This document shows positions 3,491 to 57,857 of a stretch of DNA of 64,000 bases, one piece after another. The notes under the pieces were generated by a model. The model was not told where the DNA came from. It was given only the letters and a program-made list of their open reading frames with translations, and searched no databases. Position 1 is the first letter of the stretch. Each line of letters starts with the position of its first letter. The position numbers and the translations under genes are program-made. Location: positions 2,327,501 through 2,391,500 of the forward strand of contig NZ_CP056783.1 in assembly GCF_023278045.1 (NCBI RefSeq), given 5' to 3'. Origin of the DNA: Flavobacterium sp. K5-23. GTDB lineage: Bacteria > Bacteroidota > Bacteroidia > Flavobacteriales > Flavobacteriaceae.

Positions 3491-3616
3491 TATCGACCGC
3501 CAACCTACATTACCGAGCAATCGGATTTAGTAACCGATGCAATAGATTGGAAATATAGCTCAGCACGAAATTATGGTAATAATGATCAGACTGTTTTAGA
3601 GATAGATTTAAATTGA
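3491..3616 (+). pseudogene. Remnant of REP-associated (Y1/IS200-like) transposase C-terminus
   Basis: An open stretch ending at TGA 3614-3616 encodes ...LVTDAIDWKYSSARNYGN... and ends in EIDLN. The DWKYSSARNY motif is the hallmark of the C-terminal end of Y1 (IS200-like/RAYT) transposases, normally after a NNPV..GLV segment. Only about 40 codons remain. There is no start codon, no HUH motif and no catalytic tyrosine region, so this is a dead fragment. A REP-like palindrome follows directly, which is the usual RAYT context. The family assignment rests on the motif alone. Confidence 0.6.
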
Positions 3617-3660
3617 TTTAAATTGTGTTCACGAGCGTGACGCTCGCGCCAGCAGTGATT
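3601..3660. repeat. REP-like palindrome, copy A, with transposase tail
   Basis: Contains CACGAGCG-t-GACGCTCGCG at 3630-3648, a GC-rich imperfect palindrome in an AT-rich background. It lies directly after the transposase remnant. The same palindrome occurs inverted at 7067-7101 and degenerated at 8148-8210. The left part (3601-3628) is also shared with the 8148 copy, including the last codons of the transposase. Confidence 0.6.
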
Positions 3661-5502: not shown

Positions 5503-5530
5503 TAAATTCGGGATGTTTCTTATAATTAGT

Positions 5531-5655
5531 TCCAACGTTTTGGTACTTTGAGAAGGTGTGTGAATCGTAACCTTTCAATTTTTGGTTTGTTTGGAAAATA
5601 CGATTAAAAAGATAATTCCACTAAATTTGCAAATGGATGGAAACGTGTGTTGGCA
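5531..5655. repeat. attC-like hairpin repeat, copy 1
   Basis: An imperfect inverted repeat of about 125 bases. The left end is TCCAACGTTTTGG, the right end is GGAAACGTGTGTTGGCA, and these pair. The interior shares CGATTAAAAAGATAATTCCACTAAA with other copies (shown here split: CGATTAAAAA, then GATAATTCCACTAAA). It lies 29 bases upstream of the M23 lipoprotein start. Confidence 0.65.
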
Positions 5656-5863
5656 ATAGTTTCTTCATCAATTTACTCGGGTTAAATCCATACATAAATT
5701 TATTCAAGTGTCCATTTGAGAGTAACATCGGCAAATCTTTAAATTCCAATTCCGATTTTTTCTTGCTATTTTTATCTGTAGGTTTTTCCAATTCCAATAC
5801 AGTTTTAATCAGTAGCTACTTTGTGTTTTTTTCGACTGTTAAAAAGTCAAAATATTTGCCCAT
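5621..5863 (-). pseudogene. Small ORF interrupted by an in-frame TAG
   Basis: On the minus strand an ATG at 5863-5861 overlaps the end of the preceding small membrane-protein gene. It opens MGKYFDFLTVEKNTK, then a TAG. The same frame then continues for 65 codons with protein-like, lysine-rich composition (LELEKPTDKNSKKKSELEF...) to a stop at 5623-5621 inside the hairpin repeat. This looks like a small hypothetical gene broken by one nonsense mutation. No family is recognised. Chance openness is possible. Confidence 0.33.
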
Positions 5864-6063
5864 TTTAAAAGATACATAATTAGTATTGTAATTGCGGTAC
5901 AGGTGTATAATGCAAGTTGCCAGAAATAAAGTTTACTTTTCCAAGAATCCAATATCTTTTCACCAAATTCTTTTTTGACATATCCATTAACACATTTATA
6001 ATAAAGAAAATTAAGTATTATAAAGATTGTTATCGCTATTGTTAATATCCAAAATTTTTCCAT
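5839..6063 (-). CDS. Small two-helix membrane protein
   Basis: A 74-residue protein with a hydrophobic segment at residues about 5-23 (WILTIAITIFIILNFLYY) and another at 50-68 (LALYTCTAITILIMYLL), separated by a charged loop (VKKEFGEKILDSWKSK). It is not recognised as any family. The start codon is an ATG 34 bases downstream (in its sense) of a hairpin repeat, and its last 25 bases overlap the start of the broken small ORF. Its size and position fit a cassette-type hypothetical gene. Confidence 0.55.
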   Translation of the reverse strand: MEKFWILTIAITIFIILNFLYYKCVNGYVKKEFGEKILDSWKSKLYFWQLALYTCTAITILIMYLLKWANILTF

Positions 6064-6096
6064 TCATCGAATTTTAATGTTTATGCTTGTAAATTG

Positions 6097-6215
6097 TAGC
6101 CAACATCCTGATTCAAGATAATGTTGGGGAAATAGGAGTAGAGTATTTTCTGTTAAACGAATATATGAATAAAAAAGTTAATACCACTTTAACTCTAATC
6201 TTGCCAAACGGCTTT
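6097..6215. repeat. attC-like hairpin repeat, degenerate copy 7
   Basis: Recognised by the core GTTAAACGAATAT...GTTAATACCACTTTAA, aligned with TTAACGAAAAC...GGTAATTCCACTAAA of the better copies, and by right-arm TTGCCAAACGGC. The left arm holds GCCAACAT and ATGTTGG, itself a small inverted repeat at 6100-6127. Strongly diverged. Confidence 0.42.
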
Positions 6216-6243
6216 TACAAGCTGATGTACTCAGGCTTTCTAT

Positions 6244-6957
6244 TTATTTCTTTAGCACCATATTTTTTAAATTGATACTACCACAATGAATATTTTGATC
6301 ACTTGATTTACTGTCACTTTTTGATCCATCATTTTTTATTCTATAAAAAAGATTTTGTCCTTTTAAGCTTAGTCCTGTTCGTATAGTTCCGTGTGCTCCT
6401 TCGGTTAAGCATAGTGTTACAAAATAAAAACCATTCGATTCTTTTGGGTTAATGGTTCTTCTTAATGATGCAGATTTATGAATATTTTTATCTAAAAAAG
6501 AATTTAAATTTGTCAGTCCATAATTAAACAAAGGAAATTTTTTAAGCGTCATTGTGTCGGCAGGAATTAATACTTTATAGTATTTACCTGGTAAAGACGG
6601 AATTTCGTATGAATCTACAGGAACGTCCATCTTCAATTCTAGAGGACTATCTGTTAGATTGGTAATTTGAGTCCAAAATATGGCATAATTATATACTTCG
6701 CCATTAACATCAGTATATTTCATTCCACCTCTTGGGAAGCTGTTTTGTATTATTATGCTCTTACCCTTAGAATCGTTGTATTCATATTCGGTATGAACGT
6801 CTTTGTCATTGTAATTAGCCAATGTTTTTTTACTTTGGATATTGTTTACTGAACTTAAAGTTGCTGCGTCAACAGTATCTGGAGTCGATTTATTTGCTTG
6901 TCTACAGGAAAAAAGTCCTATAGCAGCCATAATTAATATTAGCGTTTGTGTTTTCAT
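6244..6957 (-). CDS. Lipoprotein of unknown function
   Basis: A 237-residue protein that starts MKTQTLILIMAAIGLFSC, a lipoprotein leader with the acylated Cys at residue 18, so it should be membrane-anchored outside the cytoplasm. The mature part is hydrophilic, with a run of beta-type segments (YAIFWTQITNLTDSPLELKMD, FPLFNYGLTNLNSFLD) and a C-terminal region with two cysteines. No known domain is recognised. It lies 12 bases from one hairpin repeat (upstream of its start) and about 29 bases from another (after its stop), which is the cassette-like arrangement seen across this region. Confidence 0.72.
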   Translation of the reverse strand: MKTQTLILIMAAIGLFSCRQANKSTPDTVDAATLSSVNNIQSKKTLANYNDKDVHTEYEYNDSKGKSIIIQNSFPRGGMKYTDVNGEVYNYAIFWTQITNLTDSPLELKMDVPVDSYEIPSLPGKYYKVLIPADTMTLKKFPLFNYGLTNLNSFLDKNIHKSASLRRTINPKESNGFYFVTLCLTEGAHGTIRTGLSLKGQNLFYRIKNDGSKSDSKSSDQNIHCGSINLKNMVLKK

Positions 6958-6968
6958 TCTGGTGTTTT

Positions 6969-7075
6969 TAAGATAGGGTACAATGTTCTCGCGCCTCTAG
7001 CCGGTATACAAGCTTTTAAAACGAGTATTTTGGCTAAACGAAAATACGATTAAAAACGGTAATTCCACCGCTAGC
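6969..7075. repeat. attC-like hairpin repeat, copy 2 (right end replaced)
   Basis: The core GGCTAAACGAAAATACGATT followed by AAAACGGTAATTCCACCGCT (7031-7071) matches the family. The right arm expected after it is replaced by the REP-like palindrome at 7067-7101, and the left arm (GTTCTCGCGCC...) is divergent. Looks like a repeat damaged by a later insertion. Confidence 0.5.
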
Positions 7076-7101
7076 GCGAGCGTCTCGCTCGTGCACACAA
7101 A
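7067..7101. repeat. REP-like palindrome, copy C (inverted)
   Basis: The reverse complement reads GTGCACGAGCG-a-GACGCTCGCG followed by CTAGCGG, matching the 3630-3655 copy at most positions. It abuts a hairpin repeat. Confidence 0.6.
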
Positions 7102-7200
7102 GAATAATAACATTAAAAATAGTCAATTTTAGCAATCGTAATCTTCTATTTTGTTTTTCGAGCTAAAATGAAACAAGAAAAGTATAGAAATAAATAAGTC

Positions 7201-7237
7201 AAAAAAGAGAGTTCTATCGAAATCTCTTTTATTTTTG
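7201..7237 (+). promoter_or_regulatory. Hairpin and -7 box immediately upstream of truC
   Basis: AAAAGAGA at 7203-7210 pairs with TCTCTTTT at 7223-7230. The right arm runs into TATTTTTG (7230-7237), a match to the Bacteroidota TAnnTTTG -7 element only four bases before the truC ATG. This suggests a leaderless or near-leaderless transcript. A nine-codon frame (MKQEKYRNK, 7168-7197) precedes the hairpin. The hairpin could instead be an AT-rich terminator. No clear -33 TTTG is seen. Confidence 0.35.
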
Positions 7238-7241
7238 CCAA

Positions 7242-7940
7242 ATGTTAGAAATTCTTTACCAAGACGAATATATTATAGCAATTAATAAACCAAGTGGATT
7301 GCTAGTCCACAAATCATTTTACGCGCGCGATGCAAAAGTTTTTGCTATTCAAGAATTGCGAAATCAAATAGGAGGGCGACACGTTTATCCTATTCATCGG
7401 TTAGATCGAAAAACATCTGGTGTCTTGTTATTTGCGTTGAATAAAGATGTTTTAAAAATTATGAATGATCGTTTTGCCACACGCGAAGTGGAAAAAAAAT
7501 ACTTAGCAATTTTACGTGGTTGGTCACCTGAAGAACTAACGATTGATTATGATTTAACCAATGATGATGGTATTATACAAAATGCAATAACCTACTTTCA
7601 TCGATTGCAAAGTACCGAAATTGAGTTAGAATTTAACAATCAACCAACGTCACGATATTGTTTGGTAGAAGCGATTCCTGAAACTGGACGTATGCATCAA
7701 TTACGAAAACATTTCAAACATATTTTTCATCCCATTTTAGGAAGTCGTCCACATGGTTGTAACAAACAAAATAAATTATGGTTGGAGAATTTTGAAATGA
7801 AAGGAATGATGCTTCATGCACATCAGTTAATTTTTAATCATCCAATAACAAATGAACAACTTATCTTGAATGCAAAGATTAATGAAGAGTTTAGCAGAGT
7901 AAGTACTATTCTTAATCTAGATATGAATAAGTACGAATAG
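7242..7940 (+). CDS. truC: tRNA pseudouridine synthase C (TruC-like)
   Basis: This 232-residue RluA-superfamily enzyme makes pseudouridine at position 65 of certain tRNAs in the family prototype. The sequence shows the opening EILYQDEYIIAINKPSGLLV, the catalytic block HRLDRKTSGVLLFAL with its active-site Asp near residue 56, and TGRMHQLRKHFKHIFHPILG. The last is characteristic of TruC rather than RluA/C/D. There is no S4 domain, as expected for TruC. It is the only host gene on the plus strand inside the accessory region and is probably a core gene around which small genes accumulated. Start: ATG four bases after a -7 box. Confidence 0.9.
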   Translation: MLEILYQDEYIIAINKPSGLLVHKSFYARDAKVFAIQELRNQIGGRHVYPIHRLDRKTSGVLLFALNKDVLKIMNDRFATREVEKKYLAILRGWSPEELTIDYDLTNDDGIIQNAITYFHRLQSTEIELEFNNQPTSRYCLVEAIPETGRMHQLRKHFKHIFHPILGSRPHGCNKQNKLWLENFEMKGMMLHAHQLIFNHPITNEQLILNAKINEEFSRVSTILNLDMNKYE

Positions 7941-8147
7941 AATAATAATTTGCAAATTAATGCTTTAAATTAGTGTTGTATTTGGAAATAACAGTTTGCA
8001 GTATAAAGAGGAGCAGAGTTGATATTTCAGAATTTTGATCAATTCTTGAGACATTTATTAAAAAATCAGGAGACTTTTATATCGTTTGGTATTTTTAAGA
8101 ATATTTAAATTAAAAGCTCAAACAATGTCTTGTGACTTTGCGGAGCG

Positions 8148-8210
8148 GAGATAGAATTAAATTGATTTAGATTGTATGCACAATAGGGACGCTCGCGCAA
8201 TCTGGAGTTC
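8148..8210. repeat. REP-like element, copy B, with second transposase tail
   Basis: GAGATAGAATTAAATTGA at 8149-8166 encodes EIELN-stop, the same ending as the transposase remnant before copy A (EIDLN-stop). It is followed by GATTTAGATTGTATGCAC and GACGCTCGCGC. The left palindrome arm is decayed (AATAGG). This marks a second, more degraded insertion of the same element. Bases 7941-8147 between truC and this repeat show nothing further. Confidence 0.5.
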
Positions 8211-8693
8211 TTATTTCATCAGGTAGACTGTCTTAAATTGTTCGCACACAATTACCATATTTTCGTCAAATTCCTCATTGAAAGGTTTCATTTCTCTTGT
8301 ATAATAATCTTTATGAACCTTTTTCCAATACTCTAATGATTTATCGCCTTCTCCTTCAATTTCAGCAAATTCTGATGTAATCTTGTTGTATGGAACTTGC
8401 TCTACTTTTGTTGTCTTAATTACAGCTTTAGCATTTCCGCTCCAATCTGTTATAATATACTGGTCTCCAACTTTCGGAAGTGACTCATTATTTTTTTCGT
8501 ACCACCATAATGAAGTCGCTGTTGCTCTTTTTATTCCTTTTACAACCAAATCAGCACAGTCATTGGCATCAAATTCATTATCACAAAAGTAGAAGGAAAT
8601 AGGGGTTTTTAGACTTTTATTTTCAGGGTTTTCAGCGATATAATTTTCCCATAGAATTTCAACAGATTTTTTATTTTCCTCGACATCTTTCAT
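8211..8693 (-). CDS. ASCH domain protein
   Basis: A 160-residue protein with an ASCH (ASC-1 homology, PUA-like beta-barrel) domain over most of its length. Diagnostic segments are FYFCDNEFDANDCADLVVKG, the GIKRATATSLWWYE region, PKVGDQYIITDWSGNAKAVI, and AEIEGEGDKSLEYWKKVHKDYY. ASCH proteins bind RNA or modified nucleosides; some bacterial members hydrolyse N4-acetylcytidine. Which activity applies here cannot be told. Start: the ATG at 8693, with the N-terminal MKDVEENKKSVEILW reading as a helix common in this group. It lies between REP copy B and hairpin repeat copy 3. Confidence 0.83.
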   Translation of the reverse strand: MKDVEENKKSVEILWENYIAENPENKSLKTPISFYFCDNEFDANDCADLVVKGIKRATATSLWWYEKNNESLPKVGDQYIITDWSGNAKAVIKTTKVEQVPYNKITSEFAEIEGEGDKSLEYWKKVHKDYYTREMKPFNEEFDENMVIVCEQFKTVYLMK

Positions 8694-8790
8694 ATGATTT
8701 TCAGTGTTTTCAGATTTACAGTTAATTAATAAAAACTAAAATGGTAAAAGAATTAGCTTAGTTAAATTACTATTCATTGGTTTTCGTTAA

Positions 8791-8918
8791 ATGCCTTACG
8801 TTTCGCTGCTTTGATATGGCTGGAAGTTCGTAGCCGCTCAGTTTTCGGCTTAACGAAAACACGATGCGAAACGGTAATTCCACTAAAGCCTCAAATACGG
8901 CAAAACGTGTGTTGGCAT
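8791..8918. repeat. attC-like hairpin repeat, copy 3 (best preserved)
   Basis: 128 bases. Outer ends ATGCC and GGCAT pair perfectly, and ACGTTTCGC pairs with GGCAAAACGT. The core is GGCTTAACGAAAAC, GATGCGAAACGGTAATTC, CACTAAAGCC. The right end GTGTGTTGGCA is 10 bases from the stop codon of the DHFR-like gene; the left end is 98 bases from the ASCH start. Confidence 0.72.
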
Positions 8919-8926
8919 TTCGTGTT

Positions 8927-9466
8927 TTATTTTTTTCGTTTGTAATGATTCTGTGTTATTTGGTTCAGATATGTTTTTGCTCCAATCAGTTCAAATTTCA
9001 GTTCGTTTGGTAATTCTGCAAATAATAAAGAACCGCCACCTAACAAAATCGGAATTGTCGTAATCACCATTTCGTCAATTAAGTCCTCTTTCAAATAGTT
9101 CCGAATTGTGGTTCCTCCATCTACGTATAAACGATTAAAACCTTTTTCGTGAATTTGGTCTAAAATTTCAGTTAACGTTCCTATGACCATAAACGCTTTG
9201 TCTTTATGAGATTTAGGCATTTCTTTTAACTTATTACTCAATACGAAAACAGGTTTGCTATATGTCCAATCAATATCAAATCCGAGTACAGTTTCAAATG
9301 TTGTTCGTCCCATAACAAGTGCGTCAATTCCCTTGTTAAACTCTATATATCCCATATCATTATTGTTGGGATTTGGTATAGAATGCAGCCAATCAATTCC
9401 ACCATTTTTGTCAGCGATATATCCGTCTAAACTTGTTGCGATAAATACACTATTCTTTTTATTCAA
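8927..9466 (-). CDS. Dihydrofolate reductase-like protein (RibD C-terminal domain family)
   Basis: The protein shows FIATSLDGYIADKNGGIDWL at the N-terminus, ALVMGRTTFETVLGFD, FVLSNKL and LYVDGGTTIRNYLKEDLIDEMVITTIPILLGGG. These are the signatures of the RibD C-terminal/DHFR-like NADPH-dependent reductases. The exact substrate is unknown; most single-domain members are uncharacterised. The family starts with a residue just before NKKNSVFIATS. Here that position is a TTG at 9466, giving 179 residues and an 8-base overlap with the upstream protease stop, so TTG is preferred. The alternative ATG at 9493 adds MIVHKKKWE and overlaps the protease by 35 bases across a run of nine A's. The stop is 10 bases from hairpin repeat copy 3. 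Confidence 0.85.
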   Translation of the reverse strand: MNKKNSVFIATSLDGYIADKNGGIDWLHSIPNPNNNDMGYIEFNKGIDALVMGRTTFETVLGFDIDWTYSKPVFVLSNKLKEMPKSHKDKAFMVIGTLTEILDQIHEKGFNRLYVDGGTTIRNYLKEDLIDEMVITTIPILLGGGSLLFAELPNELKFELIGAKTYLNQITQNHYKRKK

Positions 9467-10370
9467 TTCCCATTTTTTTTTGTGTACAATCAATGTACAA
9501 ACTATTGTCTAAAAATATTTTGTTTCCCAACATTCCTGTCATATCAGAAAATTTCATCATTAAGTATTGGGCTTGAGAAAATCCCTCTACATAAGTAACA
9601 TTATTTAAAGGTATTTCGAGGTTGGAAATTTGTATTTTTTGGTTGCAGTTTGCTGTGTATACAGTTAAAACTTTATCCCATGATTGTCCTTTTTCGATGT
9701 TTACTTTTGAGTTGGGTAATTTTAATTTTTCCCATACTTCTTTGCTGGTTAATAATTCATAGGCACTTGTACCCGAATCAAATAAAAATTTATTCTCTTT
9801 CCCATTTAATAAACTTCTAACGATGATTTTTCTTTTTTTGAATTTAAAATCAAAGAGTTTGGTTTGAAATTGAGTGGGCACTTTTGATAAATTTAAAACA
9901 ATATAATTTTCTTTAAAATTGATGAGTGTTTTCCTGTCTTCCAGAATGTCTGCTCCAATAGTCCCAATTATTTTTAGGGAATCATTATTATTGTCATTTC
10001 CTAGATTATAAATTTTGAATTTATCGGAAGTGATTTTTGTTTTTCCAATATAAAAAGATGTTTTTGCAACTTCTTCATTTGTATGTATTTGACGTATATT
10101 TTTAATTGATTTTGAGTAAAGAATAGTGTAGGGCGAACCTGTATCAAATTGCAAATAATAGGTTGCTGTGTCACCCGGAAAATATATAGGAAGCAACAAC
10201 ACATTTTTTTCTGTACCCAACCACGTAAATGGAATAGAACCACTTTCATTTTCGACTGTCAAATAATTTTTTTCCGGAGTAAATTTTTGGTCAAAATAAA
10301 TATAGCCACCAAGTACAGCTAAAACCAAAACGACCATAAAAGTCAACATAATTTTCTTTAAAATTTTCAT
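9459..10370 (-). CDS. Membrane-anchored aspartyl protease-like protein
   Basis: About 303 residues from the ATG at 10370 (frame open to 10394). An N-terminal membrane anchor (IMLTFMVVLVLAVLGGYIYF) is followed by two retropepsin/pepsin-type lobes. Lobe one has LQFDTGSPYTILYS near residue 75 and lobe two has FLFDSGTSAYELL near residue 195, each with the D-T/S-G catalytic signature. An intramolecular pair of Asp motifs suggests a single-chain, two-lobed aspartic protease facing the periplasm. The start at 10370 puts the anchor at the very N-terminus. It is translationally coupled to the DHFR-like gene downstream, an unusual pairing that may reflect a two-gene cassette. Confidence 0.68.
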   Translation of the reverse strand: MKILKKIMLTFMVVLVLAVLGGYIYFDQKFTPEKNYLTVENESGSIPFTWLGTEKNVLLLPIYFPGDTATYYLQFDTGSPYTILYSKSIKNIRQIHTNEEVAKTSFYIGKTKITSDKFKIYNLGNDNNNDSLKIIGTIGADILEDRKTLINFKENYIVLNLSKVPTQFQTKLFDFKFKKRKIIVRSLLNGKENKFLFDSGTSAYELLTSKEVWEKLKLPNSKVNIEKGQSWDKVLTVYTANCNQKIQISNLEIPLNNVTYVEGFSQAQYLMMKFSDMTGMLGNKIFLDNSLYIDCTQKKMGIE

Positions 10371-10456
10371 TTGTTTTTTTTTTACAAATTTCAACTTTAG
10401 AAGACATTTTTTTGCAAAAGTAACACGCCAATTTTACGTCAATCGACTGACAAATT

Positions 10457-10996
10457 TTACAAATAATTGATTTTTAAATTTTTATGTAAATCGTTTTTTT
10501 TGTTTAAACTAATACCGTTTATAATAACTACCAATAATTTCAAGCAAATAATTAACAATAATGGAAATATAAAAAGCGGAAAATGTAGTGATAATCCTTT
10601 TTGAATAAATGGACTTGCGATTTGAGAAACAACTAGTGCAACCGCTATTAGTATTTGAACACTTACTATACTTTTTCCAAGTTCTTTGTTTTTTTGGTCG
10701 TTTGTTTTGTAAGTTAAAATTAACGGGAATATAACTCCTCCAAAAGGTATTATAAGTCCAAATAAACTAGAAAAATTAATCAATTTTGCTCTATCAAGTT
10801 TTATAATTTCTTTGGAGGGAATTAGCTTTTCAGGTTCCGTTTCAAAGATATTTGCAAGAGCCTTCAAGGTAAATCCTTTTGGGATATTACCTGCCTCAAT
10901 CCTTTGAATTGTTCTTAGCGAAAGTCCACTTTTGTCGGCAAGTTCGGTTTGGGTTAAGTTTTTCTCTTCTCTTAAATGTTGAACTATTGATTTCAT
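10457..10996 (-). CDS. XRE-family HTH protein with C-terminal membrane domain
   Basis: The true start is the ATG at 10996 (MKSIVQHLREEKNLTQTELA). The open frame continues upstream to 11119, but that extension is translated hairpin repeat. Residues 1-60 form a Cro/cI helix-turn-helix (LTQTELADKSGLSLRTIQRIEAG). Residues about 80-170 hold three or four membrane helices resembling a DUF4870-like domain (FGLIIPFGGVIFPLILTYKTND). The combination suggests a membrane-tethered transcriptional regulator, perhaps responding to membrane state; no target is known. It starts 35 bases from hairpin repeat copy 4. Confidence 0.82.
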   Translation of the reverse strand: MKSIVQHLREEKNLTQTELADKSGLSLRTIQRIEAGNIPKGFTLKALANIFETEPEKLIPSKEIIKLDRAKLINFSSLFGLIIPFGGVIFPLILTYKTNDQKNKELGKSIVSVQILIAVALVVSQIASPFIQKGLSLHFPLFIFPLLLIICLKLLVVIINGISLNKKNDLHKNLKINYL

Positions 10997-11030
10997 TTTC
11001 GTTTTGTTTGCGGTTCTTGTAAACTTTCTG

Positions 11031-11137
11031 CTAACGTTTTGCCACTTTGAGATAGCTGGAAGTTCGTAATCGCTCAGTTTTAGGCTTAACGAAAACTTGA
11101 TGCGAAACGATAATTGCACTAAAGCCTTGTGTATTGT
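11031..11137. repeat. attC-like hairpin repeat, copy 4
   Basis: Left arm CTAACGTTTTGCCACTTTGA, core TTAGGCTTAACGAAAACTTG then ATGCGAAACGATAATTGCAC. The right end differs from the others (TGTAACTGCCGTTACAG), as if two elements had been joined. The remaining 137 bases to the TPR gene show only AT-rich sequence. Confidence 0.6.
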
Positions 11138-11274
11138 GTAACTGCCGTTACAGGCTGGTTGTTTTTGTCGAAATTATGATTTTAACCGCAAACTTTTCAA
11201 GTTTCCTTTGGCAGATTCCAACTTTTACACTTTTTATTTGCTATTCCAATTTACGTTTCAACTTCATTTTTTTT

Positions 11275-12081
11275 TTAAAATTTCAGAACGGATTTAATGT
11301 CTTCTGAAATTTGCTGTTTATTTTCTATTTGTTCATAAAATTTAAAAGCTTTTTGTCTCATTTTTTCGTCATTTTTAATTTCAGAAACTTTGAGTAAACA
11401 TAATGAATAGTGAATTTTAAAGTTTTCATCTTTTTTATAAGTTGAATAACATCTTTCTAAATATTCTAAACCTTCATCATATTTTTTGTTTTGAGATAAT
11501 AAAACTCCTTTTAGAAATATTACTTCGTCTTTTAATTTTGGATTTGATAATTTATATTTTTCAATTGCGATATTTATATTTTCTAAACCTTTATCTACAT
11601 CTCCGAAAATAGGAGAAGTTAATGCAAAACCATAGTAACCTTCAGGGTTTTCAGGAAACAAAGAAATTATTTCATTATACTTTTTTCTAGCAATTTTCAA
11701 TGATCTATCTTGACCTAATCTTAATCCTTCAGAAGCTAAATTTATTTTAAATTCTAATGTTTTTTTTGATAAACTGTCAGCCATTATATAGCAAGCCATA
11801 GCCTTTTCGTCATTCAATAATCTCAAAGTGTATCCTGTGAAAAAAATTGCATCACAAAATGTCGTGTCGGTTTTGTAAGCTTTAAAGAAAATATTTGAAG
11901 TTATTTTGAGATATTTTGGGTCTAAAGATTTATTCAAATATAAAGTTTCAATACCTAAATTAAAAAGCTTCATTGCTTCCGGATTTTCAGATTTACAATA
12001 CAAGTTTTTACCTTCAAAGTAATCTTGAGAAAAAGTTAAATTAAAGCTTAATATTAGTAAAGTAATAATGATTTTTTTCAT
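11275..12081 (-). CDS. Secreted TPR-repeat protein
   Basis: A 268-residue protein with a Sec signal peptide (MKKIIITLLILSFNLTFSQ, cleavage after SQ likely). Tandem helical pairs typical of tetratricopeptide repeats follow, for example FPENPEGYYGFALTSPIFGDVDKGLENINIAIEKY (residues about 150-180; given here only as a landmark region) and KYDEGLEYLERCYSTYKKDENF. TPRs mediate protein contacts, so an exported scaffold role is plausible, but no function can be assigned. The gene starts 40 bases from the hairpin repeat that carries the intron. Confidence 0.72.
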   Translation of the reverse strand: MKKIIITLLILSFNLTFSQDYFEGKNLYCKSENPEAMKLFNLGIETLYLNKSLDPKYLKITSNIFFKAYKTDTTFCDAIFFTGYTLRLLNDEKAMACYIMADSLSKKTLEFKINLASEGLRLGQDRSLKIARKKYNEIISLFPENPEGYYGFALTSPIFGDVDKGLENINIAIEKYKLSNPKLKDEVIFLKGVLLSQNKKYDEGLEYLERCYSTYKKDENFKIHYSLCLLKVSEIKNDEKMRQKAFKFYEQIENKQQISEDIKSVLKF

Positions 12082-12120
12082 TTTAAATATTTCTGTTTTC
12101 TATGCGGTTTTTTGGGTCAA

Positions 12121-12256
12121 CTTGCCTGTAACGTTTTGTTGCTTTGCTCGGATTTAGGGACTAAATTAAGATTTATCTTTAGGTTAAACACTTTTAATTC
12201 AAGTACAAGACCAACTTCAAATTATGCCGAATACCCAAATCCGGCAAAACCGCTGT
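12121..12256. repeat. attC-like hairpin repeat, copy 5, split by the intron
   Basis: Left arm TTGCCTGTAACGTTTTG (12122-12138) pairs with right arm CGGCAAAACCGCTGT (12242-12256) plus TGGCAA beyond the intron (14165-14170). CGGATTT (12149-12155) pairs with AAATCCG (12237-12243). The core TAGGTTAAACACTTTT is a diverged form of GGCTTAACGAAAAC. With the intron removed the right end reads CGCTGT|TGGCAAATCG, like CGTGTGTTGGCATTTCG of copy 3. The final box is 12 bases from the stop of the 14181-14801 gene. Confidence 0.66.
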
Positions 12257-12805
12257 GTGTGCCCTGCATGAGCAGGACCCACACTGTAAGCTCGAATAAA
12301 AATTCGAAAATACAAATTTACGAATTCTAAAACAAATCTTACAGTGTGTTATTTTTCCAGAGGGTATAAGTCCCTTATGGGCGGATTGAAACCCCGAACC
12401 ATTAGTACGTCGCAAGCTGGTTTATCGTGAGATATGCAGTGAAGGAAGCGAAACGGCAAAATCCGGTACTGACGAACAGAAACGGCATAAGAGGCTGTTA
12501 TACGAGGATAAGCAAGCACAGCATTGCAACGTCCAAAGATTATCAAAATCGTATCTCAGTAGATGTCGCAGGGATTGGACGAAGGAAAAAGCTCTTACCA
12601 GGGGAGGTCTTTGCAACCACGAGTTGGTAAAGTAAAGAAGTCAGCAGAAGTCATAGTACTTGGGGCAACGAGTTGCGAATAGATACCGCACAAGTCTCAC
12701 AAACAAGGAAGGACTGAACGCAAGTGGTTCTTAATTTCTAAAGGAATGACGCAAGTTATAGCCCTAGAAAAGCGGAACAGTAAGAATTTAATGTAAAACT
12801 TAAGA

Positions 12806-14101
12806 ATGATTGCACAAGTAACACATCCTTACAATCTCCAAAAGGCGCTACGTCAAGTAGTAGTCAACAAAGGTAGTGCTGGCGTTGATGGTTTAAAAAC
12901 CACTCAGCTGACGGATTATTTCCGTGAACATAAATCTGCATTACTGGAAGATATTAAGAATGACCGTTATCTACCGCAACCCATTCTTGGGGTGGAGATT
13001 CCCAAAGGAGGCGGAAAGTTCCGACTCTTGGGAATCCCAACAGTAGTCGACAGACTACTTCAACAAGCCGTATCGCAAGCGATGATGCCAAGATTCGAAA
13101 AGGATTTTAGTGTGAATAGTTTCGGATTTCGACCCAATAAAAATGCCCGCCAAGCGGTAGGCAAAGCCTTGGGAAACATTCACGAAGGCTACAATTATAT
13201 TGTAGATATTGACCTAAAGACCTTCTTTGACGAAGTCGATCATTGCTTGTTGCTGAACCTAATTTACCAAAAGGTAAAATGCCCAACGACTTTACGGTTA
13301 ATCCGCAAATGGTTGCGAGTGCCTATACTCATCAAAGGAAAACTGGTCAAACGTAGAAAGGGCGTTCCGCAAGGAAGTCCGATTAGTCCGCTTTTGTCAA
13401 ATATCCTACTCCACGAATTGGACAAGGAATTGACAAGAAAAGGAGTGAAGTTTGTTCGTTATGCCGATGATTTTAGCATTTACACCAAATCGAAAACCCA
13501 AGCCAAAACGGTTGGTAATGCTATCTTTCTGTTTTTGAGAGACAAGCTAAAACTGACTATTAATCAAGAAAAGAGTGGGATTAGAAAACCAATTCAGTTC
13601 ACGATATTGGGATTTTCTTTTGCATCGACTTATCAAAAAGGCGTAAAAGGCAGGTATCAGTTAACGGTAGGAAAGAAAGCTTGGGCAAAACTCAAGCAAA
13701 GTTTAAAGGAAGCGACCCGCAAAACCGCACCTAGAAGTTTCGAGGAACGAATCCGAAAAATCAATGAAATCCAACGAGGATGGTTAAACTATTTTCGGGG
13801 AACGAGTATTCAAGGAAAGCTACGAGATATTGATGGTTGGTTGCGCAATCGTCTGCGCTATTGCATTTGGACGGATTGGAAGAAACCCGAACGCAAAAGG
13901 AAAAACCTGATGCGACTAGGAGTTGATAAAGACCACGCCTATGCTTGGAGCAGGACAAGAAAAGGAGGCTGGCGTATTGCTCAAAGTCCGATTCTAACTT
14001 CTACAATTACCCTACTACGGCTTAAGAAGAAAGGCTATCGGTCTATGTTGGAAACTCACATTGAACTCAACCCATCACTTTGCGAACCGCCGTATACGTG
14101 A
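12806..14101 (+). CDS. ltrA: Group II intron reverse transcriptase/maturase
   Basis: A 431-residue intron-encoded protein. RT blocks in order: GSAGVDGL (RT0/1), IPKGGGKFRLLGIPTVVDR, FGFRPNKNARQAV, the palm motif YIVDIDLKTFFDEVDH, KGVPQGSPISPLLSNILL, and the catalytic RYADDFSIY near residue 220. A maturase (X) domain follows (INEIQRGWLNYFRG, WLRNRLRYCIWTDWKKPERK). No HNH endonuclease is present, as expected for class IIC. It binds its own intron RNA, helps it splice and copies it into new sites. Its last codons (CEPPYT-stop) lie inside ribozyme domain V, so those bases are both coding and structural. No truncation or frameshift is seen. Confidence 0.95.
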   Translation: MIAQVTHPYNLQKALRQVVVNKGSAGVDGLKTTQLTDYFREHKSALLEDIKNDRYLPQPILGVEIPKGGGKFRLLGIPTVVDRLLQQAVSQAMMPRFEKDFSVNSFGFRPNKNARQAVGKALGNIHEGYNYIVDIDLKTFFDEVDHCLLLNLIYQKVKCPTTLRLIRKWLRVPILIKGKLVKRRKGVPQGSPISPLLSNILLHELDKELTRKGVKFVRYADDFSIYTKSKTQAKTVGNAIFLFLRDKLKLTINQEKSGIRKPIQFTILGFSFASTYQKGVKGRYQLTVGKKAWAKLKQSLKEATRKTAPRSFEERIRKINEIQRGWLNYFRGTSIQGKLRDIDGWLRNRLRYCIWTDWKKPERKRKNLMRLGVDKDHAYAWSRTRKGGWRIAQSPILTSTITLLRLKKKGYRSMLETHIELNPSLCEPPYT

Positions 14102-14118
14102 CCCGTACGTACGGTGGT
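14084..14118 (+). ncRNA. Group II intron domain V
   Basis: A 34-35 base hairpin (5' strand GAACCGCCGTATACG, 3' strand CGTACGTACGGTGGT) that forms the ribozyme's catalytic metal centre. The reverse transcriptase stop codon TGA (14099-14101) lies at its tip. Confidence 0.88.
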
Positions 14119-14180
14119 GTGAGAGGCGCACTCCGTTAGTTTCTAGCGGAGCCGTCTACTCGATTGGCAAATCGTTTTTT

Positions 14181-14801
14181 TTATTTAAAATATTTTTTAG
14201 CATCCTCCCAAATTTGATATTTACTATGTTCTCCTAAATAATAGTAAAATTTTCCGTCAGGCTTAATTAGGATAAAATTTCCATATCTGACTTCGTAAGG
14301 GAAAAAGAGTTTTTTTAGTAAATCATCTTTGTCTGCTTTCCAATTTATTCTTTTTTGATAATTATATTCAAGATTATCACATTCGGATGAGTGTATCCAG
14401 AATTGATTAATATTTGCGATTTTGTGCAGTTTTTTTAAGTAATCTCTGTGTAAAACATTCCATCCTGATTTTGAGTTAGTATTTTCATTCTTTTTCGGAT
14501 ATGCAGTTAAATAGTTGATAACAATATTTTGAGTTGAGTCAATTTTTTTTTCGGTCAATTCCGTTAAGTATGATTTTAAATTCTCAAAAGTATTTTTGTC
14601 AAGTTGTCCGAATTTTTTTCGAGTAACCAATAAACCTATTTGAGTTGTATCGTTCTCAAAATATAAATCTAAATTTTTACTATAATCTTTAGTTTTAATG
14701 AAATTTTCTTTACTTATTTTTTCTCCACTTTCATTATAGAAAATTATTGGTTTTTCTTGTCCGAAAGTAAGGCAAGTAAATAGGATAAATATTAATCTCA
14801 T
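14181..14801 (-). CDS. Secreted protein of unknown function
   Basis: A 206-residue protein with a short signal peptide (MRLIFILFTCLTFGQ). The mature protein is rich in Lys, Asn and aromatic residues, with the closing region FPYEVRYGNFILIKPDGKFYYYLGEHSKY. That reads like the strand-rich end of a thioredoxin- or lipocalin-like fold, but no family is recognised. Its stop codon is 12 bases from the repeat box that received the intron. Upstream of its start, at 14827-14832, is TGCCAAC (GTTGGCA in its own sense), the same box that precedes other cassette-type genes here. Confidence 0.65.
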   Translation of the reverse strand: MRLIFILFTCLTFGQEKPIIFYNESGEKISKENFIKTKDYSKNLDLYFENDTTQIGLLVTRKKFGQLDKNTFENLKSYLTELTEKKIDSTQNIVINYLTAYPKKNENTNSKSGWNVLHRDYLKKLHKIANINQFWIHSSECDNLEYNYQKRINWKADKDDLLKKLFFPYEVRYGNFILIKPDGKFYYYLGEHSKYQIWEDAKKYFK

Positions 14802-14905: not shown

Positions 14906-15007
14906 CTAAACAAATATATAAATAATAATTTTATTACAAATCATCTGTTTGTTATATATATTAAGGATGAATTTACATAAGGGTATTATTGAAAATAAGA
15001 CGCTCTC

Positions 15008-15087
15008 AATAGCCCCGATAGAAACGAAAAACCTTGTGAGGGCTGGCGTTTAGCCCTCACAAGGTTTGTAGTGTATAGCGGGAGGAG
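15008..15087 (+). repeat. Boxed hairpin element E1 (ATAGCCCC...ATAGCGGGA)
   Basis: Starts with ATAGCCCCGATAGAAACG (15009-15026) and ends with ATAGCGGGAGGAG (15075-15087). Between them is a perfect 16-bp stem, AAACCTTGTGAGGGCT (15029-15044) with AGCCCTCACAAGGTTT (15052-15067). The same end boxes enclose an unrelated hairpin at 59301-59370. It may also act as a terminator between the helicase gene and the accessory region. Confidence 0.6.
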
Positions 15088-15146
15088 ACTTCATTAAAAA
15101 CGAAATCATTCTGCTCCAAGAAAAAAGAAACGTATTTTCTTAGGTG

Positions 15147-56815: not shown

Positions 56816-56921
56816 CAGAGTACGTTTTGCTACTTAGAGATGGTGTGTGGTTCGTAATCTTTCAATTTTCGGATTAACGAAAACTTGATGATGCTTTACA
56901 TAGGAATGGTTGTTGGCGGTA
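56816..56921. repeat. attC-like hairpin repeat, copy 6, outside the main cluster
   Basis: Left arm AGTACGTTTTGCTACTTAGA, core TCAATTTTCGGATTAACGAA and AACTTGATGATGC, right end GGTTGTTGGCGG. The GTTGGC box (56912-56917) is seven bases from the stop of the 56925 gene. The arm before it is shortened. More than 40 kb from the other copies, yet with the same gene-repeat-gene arrangement. Confidence 0.62.
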
Positions 56922-56924
56922 TGC

Positions 56925-57857
56925 TTATTGTTCGTTTCGTTTTTTAAGCGCATTTAATAGTTTCTTCTCAAAATCTGTTATAATATTTTTAGACCAATAT
57001 TCTCCATAAAGTGGAATGTTTGTTTTTATTTTATAATCACAGATTAGAGTCAATTCTGTTTTATCTTCATCAATAGTTTTTAATTTATAAGTTATCGAAT
57101 TAAAAACTAAATTTTTATTTTTCAATATATGTTTAAACGTTTGACTTTGTTTTAAATCTGATTTGTCAACGTTAATTTTGAATGATAATTTTTCTAGTTT
57201 TTTTAATTCAAATACACTTTCGTTTAAGATAATTCCGTTGCTAAAATAACCTAATCTTGTATTTGTTTTTATATTATATTCTGATTTTATGGGATTTGGA
57301 AATCCAAAATAATTATAAGTTGAATTCTCAACATAATTAGTCAAGTCTGGAACAGAAAATAAATTATTCCAAATTTGTTCTTTTGAACGGTCAATTACTA
57401 TTTTCTCTGAAATTTCGAAATTAGTTTCTTTTTTTTCTACTAATTTTTCAATATTACCAATGAACAAAGGAATCGCAATAAATAACAAACTGTTTTTAGT
57501 AATACTGTTTGAATTATAGTTAGTTTTATTTTTCAAGAAAGAACGTAAAATAAAACTAACTATAATTGATATTAATAAGTAGGGTGGAAGTAAAATAATG
57601 AAACATCCTAAATCTTCTAATCTTGTTAAAAATGCAATTAATAAAAATGCAATTACACTAATCATTGGAAAAAGTACAAATTTTAACTTACTTTCTAAAA
57701 ATGGTTTTTTATCTAAAACAAATGGTAAATATCCCATTAAAACAGGAATGATTATAATATATGTCCAAGAATTTATTTCAAGAATATCAAATTCAACTAA
57801 AACTCTAAAAATTAATGCATAAATAACTGTAAAAATTATTCCGTAATATTTTTTCAT
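56925..57857 (-). CDS. Membrane protein with C-terminal SRPBCC-like domain
   Basis: A 310-residue protein. Four hydrophobic segments occupy residues about 5-150 (YGIIFTVIYALIFRVLVEFD, WTYIIIIPVLMGYLPFVL, FVLFPMISVIAFLLIAFL and LLPPYLLISIIVSFIL). Residues about 155-310 form an SRPBCC/polyketide-cyclase-like fold (FEISEKIVIDRSKEQIWNNL, VFELKKLEKLSFKINVDK, LTLICDYKIKTNIPLYGEYW). The combination of a membrane bundle and a soluble ligand-binding fold recurs in Bacteroidota hypothetical proteins. The ligand is unknown. Upstream of its start (57912-57918) lies TGCCAAC, which in its sense is GTTGGCA: the box that begins a cassette. Confidence 0.66.
   Translation of the reverse strand: MKKYYGIIFTVIYALIFRVLVEFDILEINSWTYIIIIPVLMGYLPFVLDKKPFLESKLKFVLFPMISVIAFLLIAFLTRLEDLGCFIILLPPYLLISIIVSFILRSFLKNKTNYNSNSITKNSLLFIAIPLFIGNIEKLVEKKETNFEISEKIVIDRSKEQIWNNLFSVPDLTNYVENSTYNYFGFPNPIKSEYNIKTNTRLGYFSNGIILNESVFELKKLEKLSFKINVDKSDLKQSQTFKHILKNKNLVFNSITYKLKTIDEDKTELTLICDYKIKTNIPLYGEYWSKNIITDFEKKLLNALKKRNEQ

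Follow-up and report, generated by a model that had tools for sequence, protein, structure and literature searches.

Hairpin repeats of Flavobacterium sp. K5-23 as probable attC-type sites of an integron-like Bacteroidota system with an I2-less integrase

A stretch of 64,000 nucleotides from the genome of Flavobacterium sp. K5-23 (RefSeq assembly GCF_023278045.1, contig NZ_CP056783.1, positions 2,327,501 to 2,391,500; hereafter the window) carries seven related imperfect hairpins. A first-pass annotation of this DNA proposed that they separate small minus-strand genes in the way attC sites separate the gene cassettes of an integron, in an array that has no integrase. This raises the question of whether the hairpins are recombination sites of gene cassettes and, if they are, which enzyme would move those cassettes. 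The evidence described below makes it very probable that they are recombination sites of the attC type and belong to an integron-like Bacteroidota system in which the integrase does without the I2 insertion of canonical integron integrases (an "I2-less integron").

Site arrays behind a tyrosine recombinase

Sequence-only BLAST searches with the repeat gave a patchy distribution (9/60 relatives, K5-23 itself included) because the hairpin arms diverge, and covariance models did better. We used a first model, R1, and a second one, R2, which was built from 148 sites that include the window copies and are partly R1 matches. We fetched 27 integrase regions and counted 24 of them, of which 20 (111 matches) took no part in building R1. 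All of the 124 R1 matches (E 0.002 or better) lie downstream of the integrase gene and on its strand, in 21/24 loci. The regions fetched but outside this count (L082, L095 and L096) have two, one and one same-strand downstream matches, respectively, and L096 also has an upstream match at chance level (E 2.8). By R2, the arrays reach up to 19 sites within the 20 kb fetched. In a second set of 20 regions (16 from other families, three from other genera of the same family and one from the same genus), 65/65 matches (E 1 or better) are on the integrase strand and 63/65 are downstream, in 17/20 loci, after removal of three antisense shadow matches from an initial 68. No Rfam family covers the arrays at gathering score in the four loci scanned.

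An intact platform consists of the integrase gene, a conserved attI site and an array of usually single-gene cassettes, all in the same direction, with each cassette ending in an attC hairpin. A palindromic stretch that follows the integrase stop codon ends, by eye, in [AG]C[AGT]AGTT in 26/27 loci, with L096 deviating. Genome-specific cassette sequence begins directly after this palindrome, and the attI crossover lies roughly 65-130 nt past the integrase stop. In the second set, reading by eye showed similar attI sites behind the integrase in most of the 20 loci.

Intact integrases of Flavobacterium are about 347 aa long, with conserved catalytic residues and an extra N-terminal domain of 60-70 aa. 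The I2/ICL insertion is absent: 15 residues are found where IntI4 (187-245) has 59, positions 206-254 of the NF011946 model (337 positions) are left unmatched, and the alignment with IntI1 also shows no I2/ICL. The ICL patch for which the first-pass annotation had advised searching is thus missing from the intact integrases of relatives. Foldseek ranks IntI4 first for this integrase, in a fold comparison that hardly covers the N-terminal domain. Four integrases score 218, 221, 213 and 222 bits against the XerA_Arch model NF040815 (cut-off 220, two of the four above it), and the XerC and XerD models score them far below cut-off. For the N-terminal domain we obtained sub-threshold similarity to DUF5710 only (two of four proteins, E 0.02 and 0.17); the domain may also resemble the HARP domain. 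Separately, a 588-aa relative of the integrase (genome G016, L072 1177-2943) apparently has, by eye, several N-terminal W-x-W units before its catalytic part.

Arrays of this kind might also be remnants of canonical integrons, their cassettes having been moved by an ordinary IntI and the adjacent recombinase being an unrelated relative of Xer. The attC architecture and the G/TT core are indeed integron-like, and some of these proteins bear the NCBI name "site-specific tyrosine recombinase/integron integrase". However, a search of 60 relatives with the integron integrase family model TIGR02249 returned no canonical IntI over cut-off; the corresponding 0/299 genomes of a wider search is weak evidence, as the controls gave no match either. 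What TIGR02249 gave in the relatives was many two-part matches of about 200 bits in total, as against 74 and 68 bits for the Xer-like protein of K5-23, and several of these matches adjoin independently found repeats. It is the I2-less recombinase that the arrays follow in 21/24 and 17/20 loci (although the loci were chosen by that gene), its 3' end that bears a conserved attI in 26/27 loci, and canonical GTTRRRY fits only 13/159 cassette starts. We therefore consider it very improbable that these are canonical remnants.

Some observations weigh against arrays driven by this integrase. Locus L161, in which the integrase gene has a stop, and locus L180, in which the contig ends 4.8 kb on, have no site even by R2; L167 has one site only, far downstream; and the second-set loci L203 and L205 have none. 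At L198, where the contig ends about 100 nt past the integrase, a strong site (E 2e-12) is located upstream. R2 also yields three antisense matches (E 0.008-0.03), each overlying a stronger match in sense orientation. Among the 189 Flavobacterium genomes listed, the median is 13 sites in those with an integrase as against 3 in those without (at most 16 per genome were scored, and 10 attC-free genomes outside the listing were treated both ways), and at least one site is present in 80/96 listed genomes without an integrase, so loss of the integrase or cassettes outside the platform must be common. A different recombinase as the mover of the cassettes retains some probability, given that the controls of the 299-genome search for canonical IntI gave no match. 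With these points in view, we infer from the layout of the loci that the I2-less integrase probably catalyses cassette recombination.

Site architecture and the signature of circular cassettes

Folding of single copies as DNA was significant for the window copy at 8793 alone (Table 1), while the other five folded copies gave z from 0.06 to -2.3. Because single-sequence folding was clear for one copy only, the analysis turned to covariation. The attC-like fold proposed in the first-pass annotation is borne out by strong covariation, and it is on this, not on single-sequence energy, that the structure rests. An alignment of 148 sites (146 distinct) shows hardly any variation in the outer AAC/GTT pairs, with 97% of their cells paired. 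The arms covary, with 86.3% of cells in standard pairs as against 63.1% in shuffled and 34-42% in slid controls and with double changes in 26/30 stem pairs, in an alignment that was fitted to the structure and so leans towards it. From AAC to GTT, the sites have a median length of 124 nt; the median spacing between sites is 794 nt.

The sites are tied to the stop codons of same-strand genes, as had been claimed. An open reading frame (ORF) of at least 60 aa on the same strand stops within -15 to +40 nt of the site start in 119/164 sites, as compared with 190/3280 random positions and 9/164 for the opposite strand; these 164 distinct sites combine 148 matches of R1 with the 150 best of the 202 matches of R2.

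If cassettes move as circles, the outer box R'' of a site should match the start of its own cassette and not that of the next one. We compared the reverse complement of R'' with cassette starts in 132 cassettes of 150-6000 nt. It agrees with the own start at 5.55 of 6 variable positions, and with the next cassette at 2.76 and shuffled starts at 2.70 (z 28.9); the own start fits better in 117 cassettes, the next one in 6, and 9 are tied. In the second set, for which lengths of 100-6000 nt were allowed and 53 of the 65 sites were used, the corresponding values are 5.42 and 2.66 of 6, with the own start better in 48, the next in 3 and 2 ties. Sites without AAC/GTT at the expected place or without an upstream partner were left out of both comparisons. 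When cassettes between neighbouring sites are pooled, 128/159 match their own start at all nine positions. This own-start complementarity is the signature predicted for circular cassettes with a G/TT crossover in the box R'. It also accounts for the boxes GCCAAC/GTTGGCA, which the first-pass annotation had found to fit imperfectly: they do depart from the canonical form, and sites of this system do not follow the RYYYAAC/GTTRRRY pattern, but they do so because R'' pairs with the cassette's own start and not with a fixed GTTRRRY.

An A occupies position 11 of the start in 132/132 cassettes, which were chosen for a match over their first 8 nt, and this A never matches; the match resumes at positions 12 to 15 (78 to 91%). 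Since R'' is the reverse complement of the own start, only the circular cassette or its folded strand contains a site in full. Complementarity across the whole hairpin together with a fixed unpaired base indicates recognition of a folded strand, and we infer that this folded strand is the probable substrate of the integrase. The same arrays could alternatively be served by a XerA-like enzyme that recombines double-stranded core sites, in which case the layout would be integron-like and the chemistry would not. Such an enzyme would have no evident use for pairing of R'' with R' across about 124 nt, for compensatory changes in the stems or for the invariant unpaired base, and Foldseek places IntI4 first. 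This makes double-strand recombination unlikely, although it is the least improbable of the alternatives considered here.

Under folded-strand recombination, the integrase would recognize the fold-back hairpin of one strand, and circular cassettes would be inserted at attI or attC and excised again, as they are by IntI. It would have to find the hairpin without I2; the N-terminal domain and the unpaired A may serve this purpose instead. We lean, with some reserve, towards a still wider reading: that a phylum-wide class of integrons may act on folded single-stranded cassettes without I2, that the hairpins may be read by the N-terminal W-x-W domain and/or by the invariant unpaired adenine ten bases outside the crossover, and that this chemistry may either predate I2 or have arisen twice.

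Comparison of genomes indicates that the cassettes move as units. A block of 605 bp is 99.8% identical in two species (genomes G141 and G221), the integrase genes of which are only 67% identical as DNA. Apart from a few shared L'-R' letters, the block is bounded by GTT cores, its flanks are unrelated, and its body of 466 bp is 100% identical in a third genome (G195). A cassette of the window, the gene of which has a weak TPR match (11035-12131), is found at full length in three other species (G242, G164 and G293; 96, 92 and 92% identity). Each time the flanking attC sites differ, and the 1.5 kb compared on each side have no further neighbour in common. Gene order around it is thus unstable, which agrees with what a cassette array would lead one to expect. 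The matches extend 15-16 nt past the start core, where L'-R' letters are shared, and the blastn match in G293 overruns the end core by 40 nt. In G314, the match is confined to the first 861 nt (93%). In the window, the start of this cassette, GTTACAGGC, equals the reverse complement of its R'', GTTACAGGC, at 9/9 positions.

Hairpins of about 125 nt that are scattered between genes in many copies could in principle be miniature inverted-repeat transposable elements (MITEs) or repetitive extragenic palindromic (REP) elements, spread behind genes by transposition. This is hardly credible in view of their strict polarity behind the integrase, the complementarity to the own start across a whole cassette and the transfer of single cassettes. 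To our knowledge, these are not properties of MITEs. Covariation, stop-codon polarity and cassette exchange together support the original proposal that attC-like sites separate single-gene cassettes.

The cargo sampled is small: in one array, 9/10 genes examined have no Pfam match at E 0.001. At locus L081, two cassette genes (9438-10307 and 8118-9275) encode a DUF4145 protein (PADLOC PD-T7-4, E 5.6e-8) and a RES-domain protein, which may represent defence or toxin-like cargo.

The window and the K5-23 genome

A scan of the window with R2 recovered all seven hairpins at the places where they had been annotated, all on the minus strand in cassette sense; four are strong, two decayed and one weak (Table 1). 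The spacing to stop codons described in the first-pass annotation holds for the copies at 8791, 12121 (beyond an intron) and 56816. It does not hold for those at 6969 and 11031, as the former has no minus-strand gene just upstream and the latter begins its match 118 nt after the stop.

Table 1. Features of the window; positions count from its first letter, and attC-like sites are scored by covariance model.
Feature	Position	Strand	Evidence
attC-like site, copy 1	5530..5659	-	R2 63.7 bits, E 1.3e-12, strong
attC-like site, copy 2, decayed	6098..6224	-	R2 36.4 bits, E 3e-6
attC-like site, copy 3, decayed, R'' end within GC-rich palindrome	6978..7094	-	R2 27.8 bits, E 3e-4
ASCH-domain gene beside copy 4, likely a former cassette gene	8211..8693	-	Pfam ASCH
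attC-like site, copy 4, follows RibD_C/DHFR-like gene 8927-9493	8793..8921	-	R2 76.2 bits, E 1.5e-15; DNA fold z ~ -3
RibD_C (DHFR-like) gene, likely cassette gene of copy 4	8927..9493	-	Pfam RibD_C
attC-like site, copy 5, end of TPR cassette	11029..11157	-	R2 74.2 bits, E 4.6e-15
Complete mobile cassette, gene 11275-12081 with weak TPR match, bounded by two G/TT crossover points	11035..12131	-	
attC-like site, copy 6, R' side, R'' box split by intron	12126..12254 (match 12126-12266)	-	R2 53.8 bits, E 2.6e-10
Class IIC group II intron at R'' box, opposite to cassette genes	12255..14163 (+/- 1-4 nt, by copy comparison)	+	Rfam group-II-D1D4
Intron-encoded reverse transcriptase, class C	12806..14101	+	GsI-IIC RT closest solved relative, 357 bits
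R'' remainder of copy 6 past the intron, ~10 nt after stop of ORF 14181-14801	14164..14172	-	sequence
attC-like site, copy 7, weak, match begins 3 nt after stop of ORF 56925-57857	56817..56922	-	R2 19.8 bits, E 0.023; first model R1 34 bits

Copies 1-6 have the composition of a cluster of attC sites lacking integron integrases (CALIN), namely at least two attC sites and no integrase nearby. In the whole genome, which is complete (3.49 Mb), R1 finds at least 27 sites (E 0.03 or better; a lower bound, as 150 of 1866 candidates were scored). Three of them stand alone, and the others form nine clusters of two to five members. At E 1e-70, this genome lacks any match to the intact integrase; it has separate Xer-like genes. 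At locus L085, 0.23 Mb from the window, the last 48 codons of an integrase gene are kept, with two stops, followed by attI and by one cassette, the R'' of which is complementary to its own start and interrupted by the class IIC intron. The description of the array as integrase-less is therefore correct in that none is intact in the genome, but a relic with its attI lies elsewhere in it. The window and other clusters of this genome resemble CALINs in having attC-type sites without a neighbouring integrase. They differ from CALINs in being part of the I2-less system and in the integrase relic that can still be recognized elsewhere in the genome. The simplest history would be that the integrase decayed to a C-terminal relic and left the window cassettes stranded, some intact and some eroded; the window would then represent a CALIN-like state of stranded, partly decayed cassettes, invaded by a class IIC intron.

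The reverse transcriptase (RT) of this intron scores 131 bits (6me0) and 128 bits (LtrA) with the next classes, as compared with the class C value in Table 1. All five of the copies in K5-23 and both copies in genome G022 are located at the R'' box of an attC site, opposite to the cassette genes (7/8 overall). The remaining copy, in G017 (L062, 72% identical), is outside any attC-type hairpin, and targeting of attC is therefore not absolute. For group IIC-attC introns, excerpts of PMC7923331 describe the R'' box of the bottom strand as the insertion point and an orientation opposite to that of the cassette genes, in CALINs as well. Insertion at R'' is thus independent evidence that the hairpins are attC-like. 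The present intron, likened to that group by RT class and insertion site, shares its class C RT, its insertion at R'' and its orientation opposite to cassette genes; the host sites are Bacteroidota hairpins here, and the junction is CTG/TT, as against TTGT/T in the same excerpts (PMC7923331).

Other features were noted beside the array. A Flavo-1 RNA (Rfam RF01705) lies near it (15007-15089), and the same RNA is found directly upstream of the integrase at L173 (5517-5601) and L176 (5374-5439). A direct repeat of 51 nt, 84% identical and GC-rich at its end, occurs at 3599-3649 and 8148-8198. A plus-strand ORF (7242-7940, 232 aa) breaks the series of minus-strand genes between copies 3 and 4; by eye, its product looks pseudouridine synthase-like.

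Distribution and relation to known integrons

The integrase is encoded in 140/299 Flavobacterium genomes at E 1e-70, and close relatives of it in 54 of the 394 Bacteroidota genomes sampled (12 of the same genus), in 30/171 genera, at the cut-off applied. Two Chryseobacterium plasmids carry it as well (70 and 69% identity). On one of them, from rainbow trout kidney (L225, NZ_CP041688 5000-20000), four sites of 83 to 23 bits follow downstream on the integrase strand, among consecutive minus-strand genes, and a group II intron gene points the other way; this appears to be a plasmid-borne form of the cassette system. The other plasmid has no site by R2.

In layout, the system resembles chromosomal integrons and superintegrons with IntI, such as that of Vibrio cholerae: an integrase, attI and an array, attC sites of about 120 nt with an AAC/GTT core, a G/TT crossover (deduced here from the sites), mostly single-gene cassettes and cassette exchange between species. 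It differs in its integrase, which lacks the I2/ICL insertion and has an extra N-terminal domain, and in its R box, which comprises a cassette-specific complement of 9-10 bp, an invariant unpaired A and 4 bp in place of RYYYAAC/GTTRRRY. It also differs in that the integrase and cassettes point in the same direction, with attI at the 3' end of the integrase, although this same-direction arrangement is known from some canonical integrons, for example those of spirochaetes.

IntegronFinder 2.0 reports one complete integron in Bacteroidetes proper, in Salinibacter ruber, with only In0 elements earlier (PMC9024848, excerpt), and reviews name Bacteroidota among the integron-bearing phyla (PMC8618304, PMC9668308, excerpts). 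A survey of 2008 retained only integrase matches with the additional domain (PMC2426708, excerpt), and an archaeal survey called this domain necessary (PMC9668308, same excerpt). According to PMC7790495 (excerpt), cassette capture requires the I2 helix, which no other protein has, and IntI1 loses its function when the helix is deleted. One classification of tyrosine recombinases describes an integron-like subgroup in which the insertion is incompletely conserved and yet essential (PMC8138268, excerpt); compared by description, the present system differs from it, as the arrays indicate that insertion-less enzymes may run integrons. In the open-access literature, of which our coverage was partial, we found no description of Flavobacterium chromosomal integrons or of I2-free integrons, which does not prove their absence from print.

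Integrons are a major device of bacterial gene capture, and the integrase described here is without a part that has been held to be indispensable. If the wider reading is true, few cassette systems of Bacteroidota may be commoner than this class, and it would escape any integrase filter in which the additional domain is required. The system makes the origin of integron chemistry directly testable, and it opens up a largely unread pool of cassettes.

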